Shown here: piece after piece, positions 18,824 to 27,770 of the stretch | How positions within the stretch are numbered: the first letter of the stretch is position 1 | Layout: every line of letters starts with the position of its first letter | Source of the DNA: Natronomonas moolapensis 8.8.11 | GTDB lineage: Archaea > Halobacteriota > Halobacteria > Halobacteriales > Haloarculaceae | Length of the DNA stretch: 64,000 bases | Reading direction: 5' to 3' | NCBI RefSeq assembly: GCF_000591055.1 | Contig: NC_020388.1 | Location: 868,001-932,000, forward strand | Made by a program: the position numbers and the translations under genes | The notes under the pieces: model-generated | What the model was told of the DNA's origin: nothing | The model's database searches: none | What the model saw: the letters and a program-made list of their open reading frames with translations, nothing else

Positions 18824-19614
18824 TGCGCCTCGGGGCCAATATGGACGTGCGGTTCGGCGCGACCGTCGAGGAGTTCGTCGAGTATCTCGTCGAGCTCGGT
18901 CTCGAACACGTCGAACTCACCACCGAGTACCTGCAGGCACATCCGGACGCGCCCGACCCCGAAACGGTCGGCGAAATCACGTCGGTGCACGACGTAAGCG
19001 TCACCTATCACGCGCCGTTCCGGGACTGGAATCTCGGGAGTTTCAACGACGACTCGGCGCAGGCCGGCGTTATGCAGGTCAAGCAGACGCTCGATGCCGC
19101 CGCAACCGCCGGGGCCGGTGCCGTCGTCGTCCACGGCGGCTCCGTCCCGCGGCGCTACCCGGACTGGGTTCGCGAGACGGGCCGCCGGAACGCCGTCGAG
19201 TCGCTGCGTGCGTGTGCCGAACACGCCGCCGAGGTGGGCGTCCAGCTCTGTTTGGAGAACCAGCCGTTCGACAGTCGTGATGAACGACACACGGTCGGCC
19301 CGGACGCGCTCGCGGAAACGCTCGATGCCGTCGACGTCGACCCGGACGCGCTGGGAATTACACTCGACGTGGGCCACGCCTCGGTCAACGATACCGACTG
19401 GCGTGAGTACGTCGAGCGGTTCGGCGACCGGATCACCGTCTGTCATCTCCACGACAACGACGGGGAAAGCGACGCACACGAGCCGCTGCCCGAGTATGAA
19501 CCCATCGTTGACGCTGTCGACGCACCGTACAACGTCTTCGAGATGAAGACCGTGGCCGACGTCGCGGCGTGTCTCGAAACCCAACCGGATCACATACCCC
19601 AAGCGCAGCCATGA
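18823..19614 (+). CDS. Xylose-isomerase-like TIM-barrel protein (sugar phosphate isomerase/epimerase family)
   Basis: 263 residues from ATG 18823, overlapping the phnM stop by one base. The longer upstream frame lies inside phnM. Motifs are LEHVELTTEYLQ, VTYHAPFRDWNLG, AVVVHGGSVPRRYPDW, CLENQPFDSRDE, LGITLDVGHAS and ITVCHLHDNDG, which place metal-binding Glu, Asp and His residues of the AP-endonuclease-2 fold. The position directly after phnM and before a HAD phosphatase suggests a role in handling the ribose phosphate released by C-P lyase, but the reaction is not known. Confidence 0.8.
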   Translation: MRLGANMDVRFGATVEEFVEYLVELGLEHVELTTEYLQAHPDAPDPETVGEITSVHDVSVTYHAPFRDWNLGSFNDDSAQAGVMQVKQTLDAAATAGAGAVVVHGGSVPRRYPDWVRETGRRNAVESLRACAEHAAEVGVQLCLENQPFDSRDERHTVGPDALAETLDAVDVDPDALGITLDVGHASVNDTDWREYVERFGDRITVCHLHDNDGESDAHEPLPEYEPIVDAVDAPYNVFEMKTVADVAACLETQPDHIPQAQP

Positions 19615-20264
19615 ACTACGACGCAGTCGTCCTCGATATGGACGGTGTCGTCATCGAGCCCACCGACAGAGCCGTGATTCGGGAGTCGATCACCGACACG
19701 TTCGGTGAGTTCGGCGTCGACTCACCGTCGCCGGCGCTTGTCGAGCGGTTGCTCGACCAGGAGGTGCCCACCGAAACGCTGAGAGAGCGACACGGGATCG
19801 ATCCGGCCGAGTTCTGGACGCAACGGGAACACGGTGCCTCGCAGGCGCAGATCGAGGCGGCCGACCGCGGCGCGAAGGCGCCGTACGACGACGTCTCCGT
19901 TCTCGATGAACTCCCGACGCCACTCGGATTGGTGAGCAACAACCAGCGGCCGACGGTCGAGTTCCTCCTCGAGCACCACGGCCTCACGTACTTCGAGACG
20001 GCGTACGGCCGGGAACCGACGCTGACCGGAGCCGCTCGGAAAAAACCCGACCCCCACTACATCGAGCGGGCGCTGGCGGATCTCGACGCCGATACTGCAC
20101 TGTACGTCGGCGATTCGAACGTCGACGTCGAAGCGGCACACCGTGCCGAGGTCGACTCGGCGTTTGTCCGGCGGCCACACCGGACGGACTACGCGCTCGA
20201 GCGTGAGCCGACGTACGAGCTGTCGACGCTGGCCGGGCTGACCGGGATACTCGGCTCTTCTTGA
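19611..20264 (+). CDS. HAD-superfamily hydrolase (phosphatase) of the phn operon
   Basis: 217 residues from ATG 19611, overlapping the previous stop by 4 nt. An earlier Met at 19569 is unlikely. HAD motif I is VVLDMDGVV (D9 and D11), motif II is LVSNNQRP, motif III is the Lys in ARKKPDPHY, and motif IV is LYVGDSNVDVEAA. The small cap domain is of the phosphoglycolate-phosphatase type. It is probably a sugar phosphate phosphatase. As last gene of the nine-gene plus-strand operon it may dephosphorylate a product of phosphonate breakdown. Confidence 0.82.
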   Translation: MNYDAVVLDMDGVVIEPTDRAVIRESITDTFGEFGVDSPSPALVERLLDQEVPTETLRERHGIDPAEFWTQREHGASQAQIEAADRGAKAPYDDVSVLDELPTPLGLVSNNQRPTVEFLLEHHGLTYFETAYGREPTLTGAARKKPDPHYIERALADLDADTALYVGDSNVDVEAAHRAEVDSAFVRRPHRTDYALEREPTYELSTLAGLTGILGSS

Positions 20265-20315
20265 TCGCCGCGCCGGGTCGTTTTCGACACACAGCCGCCT
20301 TTGATTGAAACACCG

Positions 20316-20360
20316 AACAGAACAGAACAGAACAGAACAGAACAGAACAGAACAGAACAG
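20316..20360 (+). repeat. Pentanucleotide microsatellite (AACAG)9
   Basis: Nine perfect tandem copies of AACAG follow the end of the phn operon, in a stretch (20265-20500) where I see no confident gene. A 5-bp unit shifts frame with each copy, but no reading frame that would profit from this is supported. Confidence 0.9.
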
Positions 20361-20371
20361 AACACGATGCG

Positions 20372-21616: not shown

Positions 21617-21754
21617 TCAATGAGCCTCGCGATCCTGTCGGTCGATGTGATCGGTCTCGGAGAGGTGCTTTTCGCCGGCGTGCTCGCTGCGGTTTGTGTG
21701 CAGCCAGTCCATGACAGTATCGTCGCGGGGTGTGTCGTCCGTCTGGGACGTCAT
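21617..21754 (-). CDS. Small hydrophilic protein at the end of the bactofilin-like operon (45 aa)
   Basis: ATG 21754 to the stop at 21617. The sequence is rich in Asp, His, Thr and Glu (MTSQTDDTPRDDTVMDWLH, then HTNRSEHAGEKHLSETDHID). It lies 44 bp downstream of the 430-residue membrane protein gene and could be the last gene of that operon. There is no known family. It is modestly supported. Confidence 0.35.
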   Translation of the reverse strand: MTSQTDDTPRDDTVMDWLHTNRSEHAGEKHLSETDHIDRQDREAH

Positions 21755-21798
21755 TTCCCAGGCGGACGACTGGTTGACACAGGCCACAGAAGACCGCT

Positions 21799-23091
21799 TC
21801 AACGCAGAGCGTTGATCGCTGTCGTTGCTACCTGATCGTTCGTGTCGATACGACGATTCTTCAGGATATCATCCGCCCACTCATCTTCAATTGATGAACA
21901 GAGCTCACAGACAGCCGATCGAACATCCGGATCATCAGCGTCCTCGTATCGACGTAGAGCTGTAATAGCTTCCTCTGGAACATCCTTACTGGGCAATTCA
22001 TCACCGAGTGCCCTGATTTTGTCTGGCGTCACTGGGCCGGTATCGAGTTCCTCGACCATTGAGTTGATTTCGGTGGGGTGCTCCTCGGAGCCATCAGTTG
22101 CCACCGACTCCTCCGTTGTTGTATCCTCCTCGACACCTTTCGATCCTCGCGTTGTTGTCTCTGTACTCTGTTTAGACTCGGCAACCGCAGCATCTGGCGA
22201 AGCTGACGGAGTTGTCTCGGTTGGGGATTGATCACGAGCGCCTCCAGTAGGGCTGGAAGACACTCCGCCGCTAGTGGGTTCCTTGTAGCCTGTCTCGGTG
22301 CTGGAAATAGCTGTTGGGGCTCGCTGATCTCCCGAGGAGTCGCTTTGGTCTAGTGCTTTTGTTTCATGAGTATTAGTTACGGTTGGCTGAGACGATCCAC
22401 CTGGGTCAGCGTATACAGCCTGTCGACCTTTCCACCCAGTCCACAGAATCGCTCCAAGCAACACACTCTGCCCTATGACGACAATATAGAGCAATGGCTG
22501 ATTCGCCGCTACCGGCCCAGTCGTCGGACCTAACGGACTGGATGATATGTATACAAACCCAACCAACTGGAGGACACTACCAGCGGCGAGGAGCACGGAG
22601 AGCCCGAAGGTGATACCCCACGCATATTTTGATCTGACACGCGCCAGCCCTGCGAGAACCGCCGGCAAAACTGCAGCAAAGACACTTGCACGCAGTAGAT
22701 CGCCTATCGAAATGAACTGTAAGCTACCGCTCACCAATCCGAGCACTATCGGAAGAAGCGCCACGTAGACAACAAGCCCAATAAGCAGGTTCTGAAACCG
22801 CTGATACTGAGATTCGACGTCAGCAGGTTGAGCACTGGCTCCAGCACGACTAGTGGATTGAGAGTCTACTGAGTGCTGACTATCGTCAGTTGCCTCTGTA
22901 TCTCGTTTTTCAGCGGCGGTTTCGGCAGCGTCTTTCGCCTTTTCGGTTGCGTCGGCTGCAGTAGTCGCGGCCTTGCGCGAGACGCCGAATATTTTGAGTA
23001 TCGCATTTTTCGTTTTCCGGAGCACGGCTAACGCGATGAACAGTGGGGAAAGCGCGCTTTTGATCATCCCCCAGATCAGTTTCCGGATCAT
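21799..23091 (-). CDS. Membrane protein with long acidic linker and HEAT-like C-terminus, unknown function
   Basis: 430 residues. An amphipathic N-terminus (IWGMIKSALSPLFIALAVL) is followed by an Ala/Glu helix (40-70). About four membrane helices lie between 98 and 215. A low-complexity Ser/Thr/Glu linker spans about 225-360. A helical domain at 365-430 has paired helices with VPEEAITALRRYEDADDPDV and ATTAINALR, like one or two HEAT repeats. It follows the bactofilin-like gene by 3 bp. The domain order suggests a membrane anchor whose HEAT part faces the cytoplasm. Confidence 0.75.
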   Translation of the reverse strand: MIRKLIWGMIKSALSPLFIALAVLRKTKNAILKIFGVSRKAATTAADATEKAKDAAETAAEKRDTEATDDSQHSVDSQSTSRAGASAQPADVESQYQRFQNLLIGLVVYVALLPIVLGLVSGSLQFISIGDLLRASVFAAVLPAVLAGLARVRSKYAWGITFGLSVLLAAGSVLQLVGFVYISSSPLGPTTGPVAANQPLLYIVVIGQSVLLGAILWTGWKGRQAVYADPGGSSQPTVTNTHETKALDQSDSSGDQRAPTAISSTETGYKEPTSGGVSSSPTGGARDQSPTETTPSASPDAAVAESKQSTETTTRGSKGVEEDTTTEESVATDGSEEHPTEINSMVEELDTGPVTPDKIRALGDELPSKDVPEEAITALRRYEDADDPDVRSAVCELCSSIEDEWADDILKNRRIDTNDQVATTAINALR

Positions 23092-23094
23092 CGC

Positions 23095-23880
23095 TTAGAC
23101 GACCGGTGGGAATTCCGATTTATCCACGCCAAGTGTGTGAAGTAGTTTACTGGCTGGTGGTACTTCCGCCGCAGACGTAGCCGTCGCGACTTGCTCGAGC
23201 GCTCCTTCGAGTTTGTCAAGTCGCTTCTTGACCGTCTCTAAATTCAGTATTCGTGGCGACAACGAGAGGTACGTCGACCCATCAATCTTGATAATATCGT
23301 CGTTATCCATCGCTGGTAGCCGCCCCTCCGGTAACTCTAGTTCCCCGAGACCGGTTACGCTGACTGGGTCTGCTAACTTGAGTTCAGTACCGATAATGGC
23401 TTGCGGCAGTACCGTCGATACATTCATCAGTTTCGTAGTTTCATACGACTTGAAGGTGTACATCAACGTGTTTTTTGCATGGAGCTTCCGCTCTGCGGTA
23501 ACGATCCCGACGACCGCACAGTTTTCAAGTATGACATCCGCACCAACGACGTTCCCGTAAATAATCGAGTCTTCGAGTCGGATCCGGGTTCCAGATACGG
23601 TTCCGTGGATCGTTGCTTTCGATCCAACAACTTTTCCATCCGACCCAACATCACCGTGAACTGAACCGCCATCAAATTCGACACTTTCAGCTCCCATCAC
23701 AGACCCTTCAACCGTTCCACCCTCTATTGAGACGGTTTCACCATAGACGCTTCCTTGTACCGTTGCGCCGTCATATATTTGCACAGGTCTGTTAATTTCA
23801 GCCTTAACGGTCGGAATAATCTTCCCGTCGTATGTCTCTCCTGACTCGACGATTGCACGAGTTTTTTCGATTTTCGGCAT
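23095..23880 (-). CDS. Bactofilin-like beta-helix (polymer-forming) protein
   Basis: 261 residues. Positions about 28-130 are regular short beta repeats with alternating hydrophobic residues and Gly turns (GATVQGSVYGETVSIEGGTV, VEGSVMGAESVEFDGG, GSVHGDVGSDGKVVG). This is the right-handed beta-helix pattern of bactofilins and the haloarchaeal halofilins. A second domain from 150 ends in a predicted coiled coil (LETVKKRLDKLEGALEQVA). Bactofilins polymerise without nucleotide and organise cell shape or surface structures. It is followed after 3 bp by the membrane protein gene and preceded directly by a coiled-coil gene. Confidence 0.72.
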   Translation of the reverse strand: MPKIEKTRAIVESGETYDGKIIPTVKAEINRPVQIYDGATVQGSVYGETVSIEGGTVEGSVMGAESVEFDGGSVHGDVGSDGKVVGSKATIHGTVSGTRIRLEDSIIYGNVVGADVILENCAVVGIVTAERKLHAKNTLMYTFKSYETTKLMNVSTVLPQAIIGTELKLADPVSVTGLGELELPEGRLPAMDNDDIIKIDGSTYLSLSPRILNLETVKKRLDKLEGALEQVATATSAAEVPPASKLLHTLGVDKSEFPPVV

Positions 23881-24807
23881 TTACGATCCCCCCTCAACGG
23901 CAATTTCTCCTTCGTCATCTACCGTATCTTCGATAAGCCCGCCGTAGGAGAGTAATGGCTTATCGCGACTGATATACTGGTCCAATTGATTTCGAACGGC
24001 ATCTCCATCGAGTGACTCTACTTGGCCTCGGTTGAATCCAGTATGCGAAACAAGACGATCCATCCCAGGTAACGATTGCAGCGAGGCGGAGACTGGGCCA
24101 TCGTTGTCAGCTACCTGAGAGGGTCTGATGACCCGCTGTTCGGTTTTCCCGTCGCGCTCGACAGTAACGACGTAGTACGGAACCTGCATCGCCACGGGAT
24201 CCGAAAGCGACCGATCAAACTTCGTTCGCGTCCGTTCGATGCGGTTGACAAGCTCGTTCTGGTGGTCAACGAACTCATGTATTTTTCCGACTACCTCGCC
24301 AGTCGTTGATTCGACGCGATCGCGACGCTGCTCTCTTACTGCCTCATTCTGTGATTGAAGCGTTTGCCATGTCGCGGTTACATGCTCGGTAAATGGTTGT
24401 TCAATACCATCCTCAAACTGCTCTTCGTCAAGCTCGAAGATGTGTGCTCCAACATCCCGAATGCGCGACGCAGCCTTCTCATCAAGTTCATTATGCTTTC
24501 GTTCGTATCGCTCGGCGATGCGGTCGAGTTGCCGGTTGAGCTCCTCCTGTTCGGATTCGATCCGCTCCTGCTCAGCTGTTATTTGCGGTCTGATTTCGCG
24601 CACTTCCGCAACACGCTCCATCATTTTCATTTCAGCCTGTGCCTGGATAGAATCGTGCACTGCATCGACGATAGCCTCGGCACCCTCTGTAACAGCTGTA
24701 TATACTTTCTTTACATCGCCTCGAATCTCTTTGACCGATGTAAGGATATCTCCTAACGTCTGATGGATCCGCTTGAGAATCGGATGAAGGTCGTCATTGC
24801 CGGCCAT
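23881..24807 (-). CDS. Long coiled-coil protein, unknown function
   Basis: 308 residues, soluble. An N-terminal helical region (LKRIHQTLGDILTSVKEIRG) leads into long coiled coils at about 65-115 (QERIESEQEELNRQLDRIA) and 150-200. A small beta-containing domain follows (about 205-300; VPYYVVTVERDGKTEQRVI). It lies head to tail between the bactofilin-like gene and the broken Zn-ribbon gene. This suggests it is a structural partner in one assembly. There is no enzyme motif. Confidence 0.75.
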   Translation of the reverse strand: MAGNDDLHPILKRIHQTLGDILTSVKEIRGDVKKVYTAVTEGAEAIVDAVHDSIQAQAEMKMMERVAEVREIRPQITAEQERIESEQEELNRQLDRIAERYERKHNELDEKAASRIRDVGAHIFELDEEQFEDGIEQPFTEHVTATWQTLQSQNEAVREQRRDRVESTTGEVVGKIHEFVDHQNELVNRIERTRTKFDRSLSDPVAMQVPYYVVTVERDGKTEQRVIRPSQVADNDGPVSASLQSLPGMDRLVSHTGFNRGQVESLDGDAVRNQLDQYISRDKPLLSYGGLIEDTVDDEGEIAVEGGS

Positions 24808-26272
24808 ATTATTTCCCCCTCCGCTCCGGTTTCCGCTGATTAGTCACCGCAATCGTACTCATAACCGCTGCGGTATGTACCCGATCTCGCGCTGCACGGT
24901 CCTCTGCGATTGCCTCCTGTGTGGCGATCGTTTCACGATGACGCTGGCGCTCTTCTTCCCGCATCGTCTCGGCTCGCGCCTCAGCCTCCTTTTCAGCCTC
25001 TTCAATACGATCTTCGACGACCCCCTCGGTTTCTTTGAGGACACGCTCTGTCTCCTCGTCGATCGCCTCAAAGGACTGGTTGACATCGGCCCGGAACCGT
25101 TCTATCTTTTGTTGCTGCAACCGTTCATATTTGCTCATTAGGTCCCCCATCTCTTTGACGATTCCTTGCTTGGCTCGCGCTTCAGTTTGGAGATCGCGAA
25201 TCTTTGCGCGAATGTCTTTGATGCGATCTTCAACGGTCCGGATTTCCTCTCGCCGTTGCTCGAACTCCCGTTCGGTCAACTCGGCCTTCTGATCCTCAAT
25301 AGACTCATACACCTCACGTTTCTGATCGTCTTTTTCTATCCAGAGTTGATCCCAAATATCAAGCACAATTTCGTCACGAATCCGGTGTCGAGGGACCCCA
25401 GCCGGTACTTCCATAGATGAACGACAGGTAGGGCAATACCACTGACCATCCTCCTGCCGTATTTCGAGTAGCGATTCGATATCATCCCCCATGCAATCCG
25501 GGCAGTAGAAATTATACGAGATGAGTCCAACCATATCGCCCGCGGTTGCAATATGCTGATTCAGTAACTCGGTAGCCTGCTTTTGATGGCCTGAAAGGTC
25601 GTTGGCGATTTGCCGGCTCTGTTCGCTGACGTCCAGTAATACTGATTCCCCGCGGTCTTCGTCCGCCATCGACTCGAATTCATCGAACGTCTCTACCTGC
25701 TGTTCAGCCTCCTGCTGAGAGAGTGTGACGCCTCCAGCGTCAATCGACCCCGAGTCAGCCTCCGTAGCCAACTGTGATAGAGACTCGATTGCCGGATCAT
25801 CGTCCTGTAAAACCGGTGACGTTAGTTCATGCGTTTCGCTGTTTTTGATCTCAGTCTCGATTGCCGAGATGCTATTGACGAACTGGTCTTCAACGTCATT
25901 TTTTCGTTCATTACGACTGGGAACTCCTCCATCGAAGCAAGCCGTTGTTTGACTCCCTGTGCCTGCTCCGGATCTTTGAGAAGGTTCAGCTGAAATTGTT
26001 GTGGATCTATTGACTCGGTAGCGTCAAAGACGACTGTTTCGTCGCCGTCCGGAACGAGGTACCCCGTCCAGTACCCTTTTTGCACCCCGGACACCGTAAC
26101 GTCCGGTGTCTGAGAACGAACGTATGCGCCTCCCCCGACTCCCCCTAAAACTCCGATGCCAAGCAGCCCTGCACCGATACCGGTCTCACCGATAGCAACG
26201 CCGCCGATACCAGCGAGTATCAGAATAGTTGCGGCTGCTATTGCCAGCTTCAGCCGAGACCACTGTTGGTTG

Positions 26273-27379
26273 CTCCGTTGAATACCGACGCCGTCTGCGG
26301 ATTATATCGCTGATTTCAGGGGAATTGGACGCCGTCTTGCGATATGGGGCGTCTCAGGACCCTCGCACAAACGTTTCGAGACTTTGCCACAAACCACGTA
26401 GAGGAACCAGACGTACCCGCCGCGCCGGACGGCGCGGACGGGTACGCTAACTCCACGAAAATCGCGCTGCTTCTACTTAAAGAGGAAATCAATAAACCAC
26501 TCCGGAAGCTCGAAGATTACCTGAACGAGATGCCGGGAATCCTCGATGTGTTCGGCCTTGAGAAATCTCCAGATTACTCGTCGTTCAGCGTTTGGGACGG
26601 TGAATTTCCGATGAAAGAGTTGCGCCGCCTGCTCCGCCAGTCAGCGGAGCAGGCGGGGCTTTCGGGCACTGCGTCGATTGATGCCAGTGGCTTCCAACGA
26701 GATCAAGCTAGCTCACACTACCGAAATCGAGTCGGTTACTCGTTCAATGCTATGAAGACGACGCTGCTCGTTGATACGGACTCACTTGCCATCATGGATG
26801 CTCATTTCACGACGAAGAAAGCCTATGACGGCCATATCGGACTGCAGGTCTTTCGGCGCAACGCCGAAGACCTGCAGGAGTTGCTGGCTGACAAGATGTA
26901 CTCGTGGAGCGATCTCCGTGAAGCCTGCCGTGACGCGTCAACGCGACCAGTAATCAAACACTGTGAGCAAAACGGACTCAAGAAGGCCCACAACGCTCGA
27001 ATTGACGACGATGTCTACAATCAGCGGTCAATGAGCGAGACAGTGTTTGCGATGGTGAAGGACGGTGGCGATGAGATTCGCTCCCGGAGTTGGCACGGCC
27101 AATTCCGGGAGCTCACGCGCAAGTGCATCGTACATAACCTGACGCAGGCGGCGAGTTAGGCTCGCCGCCTGCTCTCCTTCTCTGGACGTATCCGTGAGAG
27201 GCATCGCCATCGTCCACCTCATTCTTCGTGCGGTATCTTGTGAAACTGATGTTTTGACCACTGCGTAAAGCCGCTAAAATTGAATCGTCCGATCTTAGAA
27301 TCCGCAGAGAGAGCGTAGCTACCCGTGAAAAATCTAATATCATAATACTGATTCTGTCGCTGTCTTGCGTTCAACAGAG
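26273..27379 (+). mobile_element. IS5-type insertion sequence inside the Zn-ribbon gene
   Basis: About 1107 bp. End inverted repeats are short and imperfect: CTCCGTTGAA on the left and the reverse complement CTCTGTTGAA on the right. Direct repeats CACTGTTGGTTG flank it at 26261-26272 and 27380-27391. This is long for a target duplication, but it restores the host reading frame exactly when one copy is removed. It carries one intact transposase gene. Confidence 0.75.
26344..27159 (+). CDS. IS5-family transposase
   Basis: 271 residues, apparently full length. The DDE residues are D113 in SIDASGFQ, D183 in LLADKMYSW, and E232 in QRSMSETVF. IKHCEQNGLKKAHNARID between the second Asp and the Glu is typical of haloarchaeal IS5-group proteins. 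The start ATG lies about 70 bp inside the element. Confidence 0.88.
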   Translation: MGRLRTLAQTFRDFATNHVEEPDVPAAPDGADGYANSTKIALLLLKEEINKPLRKLEDYLNEMPGILDVFGLEKSPDYSSFSVWDGEFPMKELRRLLRQSAEQAGLSGTASIDASGFQRDQASSHYRNRVGYSFNAMKTTLLVDTDSLAIMDAHFTTKKAYDGHIGLQVFRRNAEDLQELLADKMYSWSDLREACRDASTRPVIKHCEQNGLKKAHNARIDDDVYNQRSMSETVFAMVKDGGDEIRSRSWHGQFRELTRKCIVHNLTQAAS

Positions 27380-27520
27380 CACTGTTGGTTGAAATGCCCC
27401 TCGATCTCGTCGCGTACCGCCTCGTGAATCGCTAACGCCCGCGCGTTTTCTTCACTAACAGTACTGCTGTCATCGAAAATTACTGACGAGACTCGCACGG
27501 TAGATGGTACACTACAACAT

Positions 27521-27530
27521 AACTTAAAAT
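27521..27530 (-). promoter_or_regulatory. TATA box for the broken operon's first gene
   Basis: On the minus strand ATTTTAAGTT centres about 28 nt before the GTG at 27498, fitting a leaderless promoter. Its presence supports the GTG start. Downstream operon genes may now depend on it or on promoters within the IS. The stretch 27531-27777 has no gene I can support. Confidence 0.5.
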
Positions 27531-27770
27531 GTTCCCACGGGACAGAAATTGAAAATATTTCTGCGAATTAACGAACCAAATCCGCATTAACGGTACTTCC
27601 CGGCCGGGACCTCAGTGAGCATATTGAAGCCAGCTGAATTAAAAAGCCTCACAACGGCTACTTGATAGTTCACTGTACTACGTGAGAACGGTGATAAACA
27701 GCGATACCCCCGGCTTCTGCTGTTGTTTCTGAATGGGGCTGTAGCTCGGAGAGGGCTAGCCCGAGGCCAC

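Follow-up and report, generated by a model that had tools for sequence, protein, structure and literature searches.

A three-gene bactofilin-like cassette of haloarchaea, broken in Natronomonas moolapensis and adjoining a putative ESCRT-type locus in some relatives

We analyzed a window of 64,000 nucleotides from Natronomonas moolapensis 8.8.11 (C1:868001-932000 of a 2.91-Mb single-contig genome, NC_020388.1), the relatives of which are haloarchaea, and focused on an operon on its minus strand that includes a gene for a bactofilin-like protein. Positions given without a contig or locus prefix are those of the window. The operon consists of a broken first gene, g1; g2 (23881-24807), which encodes a 308-aa coiled-coil protein with a small C-terminal beta domain; g3 (23095-23880), which encodes a 261-aa bactofilin-like beta-helix protein; and g4 (21799-23091), which encodes a 430-aa membrane protein with a HEAT-like C terminus. 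The 3′ part of g1 and g2, g3, and g4 are minus-strand coding regions arranged head to tail with gaps of 0-3 bp, and the reading frames of g2-g4 stay open. A sequence-only reading had described this region as a packed operon of five genes; the packing holds from the 3′ part of g1 to g4, whereas the remaining stretch, 21617-21802, is no member.

That reading had also taken the first gene to be broken, and we find that it carries two lesions, an insertion sequence (IS) and a frameshift. Upstream of g1, an element on the minus strand (27524-27560) contains the TATA-like sequence CATTTTAA ~26 nt 5′ of the GTG start codon at 27498, the position expected for leaderless haloarchaeal mRNAs, and may serve as the promoter. 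The 5′ piece of g1, which holds the first ~39 codons (27381-27498, minus strand), is cut by an IS of 1,109 bp (26272-27380, plus strand), which is flanked by the 10-bp direct repeat AACCAACAGT, a target-site duplication, carries a transposase open reading frame (ORF; 26344-27159, DDE_Tnp_1), and occurs twice more in the genome at full length and with 100% identity. The middle piece (25899-26271, minus strand), which encodes a transmembrane (TM) hairpin and a conserved beta region, ends at the second lesion, a frameshift in an A6 run at 25899-25904, and the 3′ piece (24809-25898, minus strand; the ORF itself spans 24809-25771) encodes a zinc ribbon (CPxC...CxxC) and a long coiled coil. The frameshift might stem from a sequencing error; the IS alone breaks g1. 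Intact relatives of g1, of ~526-580 aa, span all of the window pieces (tblastn). As judged by protein identity and nonsynonymous substitution (dN), the 3′ piece evolves no faster than g2 or g3 (synonymous sites are saturated, and dN/dS against the window is unusable), and the loss of g1 therefore looks recent. The window copy probably no longer makes its membrane anchor; because g1 is disrupted in this genome, g2-g4 may be unanchored, and we consider the window copy of the cassette to be probably inactive.

The core of the operon is three genes, g1-g2-g3, and not five. When pieces of the operon were searched by tblastn against relatives in a sample of 195 genomes of the same order, g1 and full-length g3 picked out the identical nine genomes, and g1 was intact in eight relatives. 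A pattern scan of named genomes with the g1 alignment, used in place of g3, which gave no matches in such a scan, recovered Halonotius aquaticus again and added seven cassette carriers, namely Halorhabdus amylolytica, Halorientalis marina, Halorientalis regularis, Halorarius halobius, Natronorubrum thiooxidans, Halolamina pelagica, and Halorubellus salinus. At all 17 loci (the window and 16 others), g1-g2-g3 stand in one order on one strand with their ends touching or overlapping, an arrangement far beyond chance, and the expected co-occurrence of these genes in other genomes is thus borne out. The 17 carriers are archaea, almost all of them halophilic; 16 fall within a single order of haloarchaea or close to it, and the other, G212, lies outside the order and has all three genes. 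A genome of the same genus as that of the window retains the g3 tail as its sole cassette remnant. Relatives of g4 flank the cassette, upstream or downstream, in 10 of the 17 loci, and g4 thus stands as an operon partner, albeit an optional one. In three cassettes without g4, a gene for an 81-aa protein with up to three hydrophobic segments lies directly behind g3 (L027:9167-9412, minus strand; L038:13463-13708; L039:13490-13735) and is perhaps a substitute membrane partner. A 61-aa ORF at 21617-21802 (minus strand) was considered as a fifth component and rejected, since none of the relatives has a matching ORF next to g4. Over 91 bp, its DNA shares 81% identity with a reading frame at C1:1586090, which resembles a transposase-like ORF at C1:1477095-1478039; the 61-aa ORF is a transposase fragment that most likely remains from an IS and lies outside the operon.

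The first two cassette genes appear to encode new coiled-coil proteins. The g1 product has a TM hairpin near residues 45-85 (two segments exceed the threshold in H. amylolytica and one does so in two other members), followed by a zinc ribbon with conserved CPxC/CxxC motifs and by a long coiled coil; the g2 product forms a coiled coil, and a PYYVV region is conserved toward its C terminus. In Pfam, NCBIfam, PADLOC, and solved structures, g1 and g2 give only coiled-coil noise; a match of g1 to a tendon-repeat protein in the PDB was judged to be a coiled-coil artifact. We conclude from these sequence comparisons that g1 and g2 are new families. This agrees with the failure of the sequence-only reading to recognize the partners, and the TM hairpin in g1 fits its suggestion that the assembly is membrane-tethered. 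The arCOG03733 proteins of TACK archaea (CdvA-type/zinc-ribbon coiled-coil relatives; PMC10936438) likewise combine a zinc ribbon with a long coiled coil near ESCRT genes; g1 differs in having a TM hairpin, and the likeness is one of layout, compared by description.

The g3 product has a repeat unit of ~16-17 residues per turn. The region predicted earlier as a beta-helix (residues 28-130) is strand-rich in the AlphaFold2 model, in which regular strands extend over residues ~33-150 with a predicted local distance difference test score (pLDDT) of mostly 89-97, followed by a helical C terminus. The Bactofilin family (PF04519) matches 15 of 16 g3 members at E<0.01 (best 1.3e-6); the window g3 scores 20.7 bits, under the curated cut-off of 27.9. 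Like bactofilins, including the haloarchaeal halofilins, which act in cell shape (PMC12186497), g3 would have a short-turn beta-helix between short tails; it differs from them in its own ~110-residue C-terminal region and in belonging to an operon of fixed order that also encodes two new coiled-coil families. The window genome has two other bactofilin-domain genes, and g3 represents a further system.

In several relatives, the cassette lies beside genes that resemble those of the endosomal sorting complex required for transport (ESCRT). In the genome G103 (loci L024 and L084), the genes run in the order g4-g3-g2-g1, a Ser/Thr kinase, a zinc-ribbon protein, a ~298-aa protein, an SPFH-like zinc-ribbon protein, a membrane coiled coil, an AAA ATPase, a ~220-aa charged helical protein, a small membrane protein, p214, and a ~700-aa coiled-coil protein. 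Halorhabdus amylolytica has an almost identical gene set in a single stretch (L034), and G212 (L054/L083) has a block of AAA, 220-aa, p92, p214, and coiled-coil genes, a second AAA gene, a kinase gene, and the cassette within ~16 kb. Three genomes thus have the cassette in one stretch with kinase, AAA, and ESCRT-III-like genes; Halonotius aquaticus (L036) has a kinase gene next to the cassette and, on other contigs, the block in two copies. The conserved gene for the ~220-aa charged helical protein, which we call ESCRT-III-like, is located directly upstream of the AAA gene. The AAA ATPase of the linked locus, a candidate Vps4-like protein, gives an AAA match at 2e-36 and, at the expected N-terminal place, a match to MIT at E=0.024 only; the kinase and phosphatase of the locus match Pkinase (1e-29 to 8e-49) and PP2C (3e-16). 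The proteins p246, CC664, and p214 stand at positions matching arCOG13166 (an FHA-domain protein) and arCOG09748/08177, and in Pfam none of them matches FHA or DUF3568.

In Halobacteriales, the ESCRT loci termed “main” and “Halo_FHA” encode Vps4 and ESCRT-III together with a coiled-coil/winged-helix protein, a small partner, a Ser/Thr kinase, and a phosphatase, and SPFH is present in a clade related to them (mBio 2024, PMC10936438). The linked locus shares with these loci an AAA ATPase with a possibly MIT-like N terminus, a small gene for a charged coiled coil immediately upstream of it, a ~660-718-aa coiled-coil protein, a Ser/Thr kinase, PP2C, and an SPFH-zinc-ribbon protein. It differs in that g1-g2-g3 occur both with and without such a locus, and ESCRT-III identity is not provable by sequence. 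By its gene content, the linked locus matches the published haloarchaeal ESCRT loci and can be regarded as putatively ESCRT-type. The word “bactofilin” does not occur in the main text of PMC10936438, and our literature search found no paper tying bactofilins to archaeal ESCRT. We also note that the genome G122 (C6:30001-44300, L112) has the block without the cassette, with genes for kinases, PP2C, a zinc-ribbon protein, SPFH, AAA, and a 226-aa helical protein; its SPFH protein is clear (Band_7, 3e-9), and G122 can serve as a genome for comparison.

The window genome has an ESCRT-type block of its own at C1:1484-1495 kb, ~0.6 Mb from the cassette; it includes a PP2C gene (3e-16), and its kinase is 55% identical to that of G103. 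Directly behind this kinase gene, we found the g1 upstream element (93% over 74 bp), then an IS with its transposase, and then a stump of g1 (element and stump near C1:1494868), which comprises the first ~52 codons (96% over 145 bp), is cut off by other DNA, and contains no IS where the window copy of g1 has one. The stump and upstream element behind the kinase indicate that this genome formerly carried the cassette after the kinase gene, the arrangement seen in G103 and H. amylolytica. We infer that the cassette moved out of the putative ESCRT-type locus in this genome, leaving the g1 stump behind, and that the window IS struck only the moved copy or came later. Beside the same locus, we note an array of about eight Ser/Thr kinases (C1:1465316-1499147; L077, L078, L079) with IS elements between them and with varied attached domains, namely PQQ beta-propellers, TPR, Hsp70, and plastocyanin-like domains. 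The array includes a chaperone-kinase fusion ORF (C1:1474009-1477137, L114:509-3637) with Hsp70 (1e-191), a GrpE-like stretch (2e-7), and a Ser/Thr kinase (3e-31).

The reading we favor, which in our judgment has about an even chance of being correct, is that the cassette encodes a membrane-tethered bactofilin-type scaffold that works with an ESCRT-type system without strictly needing it and that has been relocated, and is probably inactive, in the window genome. The g1 product would sit in the membrane by its N-terminal TM hairpin, with the zinc ribbon and long coiled coil reaching into the cytoplasm, and through contacts among the three proteins would anchor g3 and g2, the latter acting as a coiled-coil linker. 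Like bactofilins, the g3 product would polymerize, its units stacking end to end to give short non-polar filaments; g4, or the 81-aa membrane protein in some loci, may be an added membrane partner. Most likely, the cassette would have originated as, or been co-opted to be, an accessory to an ESCRT-type membrane-remodeling locus of haloarchaea, where the kinase/phosphatase pair and the AAA/ESCRT-III-like pair would act at the g1-marked site and the cassette would provide a stable, possibly phosphorylation-controlled platform for dynamic ESCRT polymers; elsewhere, it would work alone. The proposal of the sequence-only reading, a membrane-tethered cytoskeletal or envelope assembly with new partner families, accords with the g3 fold, the g1 hairpin, and the two new families and loses its fifth partner. 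A bolder version, which we put forward tentatively and think will rather fail than hold, is that haloarchaeal ESCRT-type systems work on a dedicated kinase-regulated bactofilin scaffold, in which g1 marks the site, g2 and g3 form a static filament, and the AAA/ESCRT-III-like pair remodels the membrane. If this is true, two polymer systems so far treated separately, bactofilin and ESCRT, become linked. To our knowledge, the ESCRT loci of FtsZ-dividing haloarchaea have no demonstrated function, and our literature search turned up no report of an operon partner for any archaeal bactofilin. A bactofilin module of three genes in fixed order, tied to putative ESCRT-type loci, bears on both questions and offers a concrete, testable protein set in culturable organisms.

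Several observations weigh against the tethered-scaffold reading. Among solved proteins, the AAA ATPase is closer to Cdc48/VCP than to Vps4, and the 220-aa protein has no sequence match to Snf7 or to solved ESCRT-III structures; in a Sulfolobus control, too, the Snf7 model scores below its cut-off, and the Snf7 negative therefore means little. The structure model of g1 is poor (pLDDT 57) and was left uninterpreted. Further, at least 11 of the 17 cassette genomes have no ESCRT-III-like gene of the 220-aa family, and the scaffold must therefore also be useful alone. This last point is what would be expected if the cassette were instead a stand-alone cell-shape cytoskeleton, a third, halofilin-like bactofilin system of haloarchaea that has come to lie beside ESCRT-type loci through shared islands. 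The neighbors of the cassettes in the carriers without an ESCRT-III-like gene are unrelated to each other, and halofilins have a role in cell shape (PMC12186497). We regard this alternative as possible but would not expect it to prevail, as the cassette abuts kinase and AAA genes in genomes from three genera (one of these genomes lies outside the order), is linked to a kinase in a fourth, and has left a stump in a fifth. In a 393-genome sample of the phylum, the 220-aa family occurs in five genomes and the cassette in six, with four having both (four of the five ESCRT-type genomes; hypergeometric P = 8e-8; P = 3e-4 in the order sample), although these tests treat genomes as unrelated and ignore phylogeny. 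In a tree of g2 and g3, the window copy clusters with those of G103 and H. amylolytica, close to Halonotius and to Halorientalis marina, which lacks the 220-aa gene, and G212 is distant; it follows that the linkage either is old and has been lost many times or has arisen twice.

The cassette could also be an accessory of a mobile or defense-type island, with the kinase, phosphatase, and AAA proteins as the sensor and the cassette as a membrane effector scaffold. Its very patchy spread (9/195 genomes), the IS debris at both of its ends in the window, and the kinase arrays with diverse sensor domains in the window genome would suit such an origin, which we nevertheless consider unlikely: its coiled-coil proteins give only unspecific coiled-coil matches in PADLOC and g3 gives none, no toxin-like or nuclease domain was found in the cassette proteins, and phage and plasmid records contain no cassette matches, the lone match to a viral contig being a 32-residue zinc ribbon. 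On these grounds, we rejected both a defense system, the PADLOC matches being unspecific coiled coils, and a phage or plasmid origin of the cassette. A further point against a bactofilin-type scaffold concerns the fold of g3. A Foldseek search of g3 against the PDB gave nothing significant and mixed left- and right-handed helices, with an LpxA-type protein as the (nonsignificant) top match; the best PDB sequence matches are to eIF2B gamma; and the left-handed-helix family LbH_EIF2B matches 10 of the 16 g3 members (best 2.2e-6). Because the fold matches are mixed and LbH_EIF2B matches these 10 members, the g3 helix may be of either handedness. These matches would be accounted for if g3 were a left-handed hexapeptide-type oligomer and no bactofilin, and the operon encoded an enzyme or regulatory complex of eIF2B/LpxA fold. 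We think this very improbable, given that the g3 turns have 16-17 residues compared with 18 in hexapeptide helices, that Bactofilin matches more of the g3 members with a slightly better best score, and that no acyltransferase domain is present.

Outside the operon, we note a perfect GAACA x10 microsatellite at 20315-20364, ~125 bp from a tRNA-Ser gene (20101-20189), which itself overlaps a plus-strand ORF at 19569-20264.

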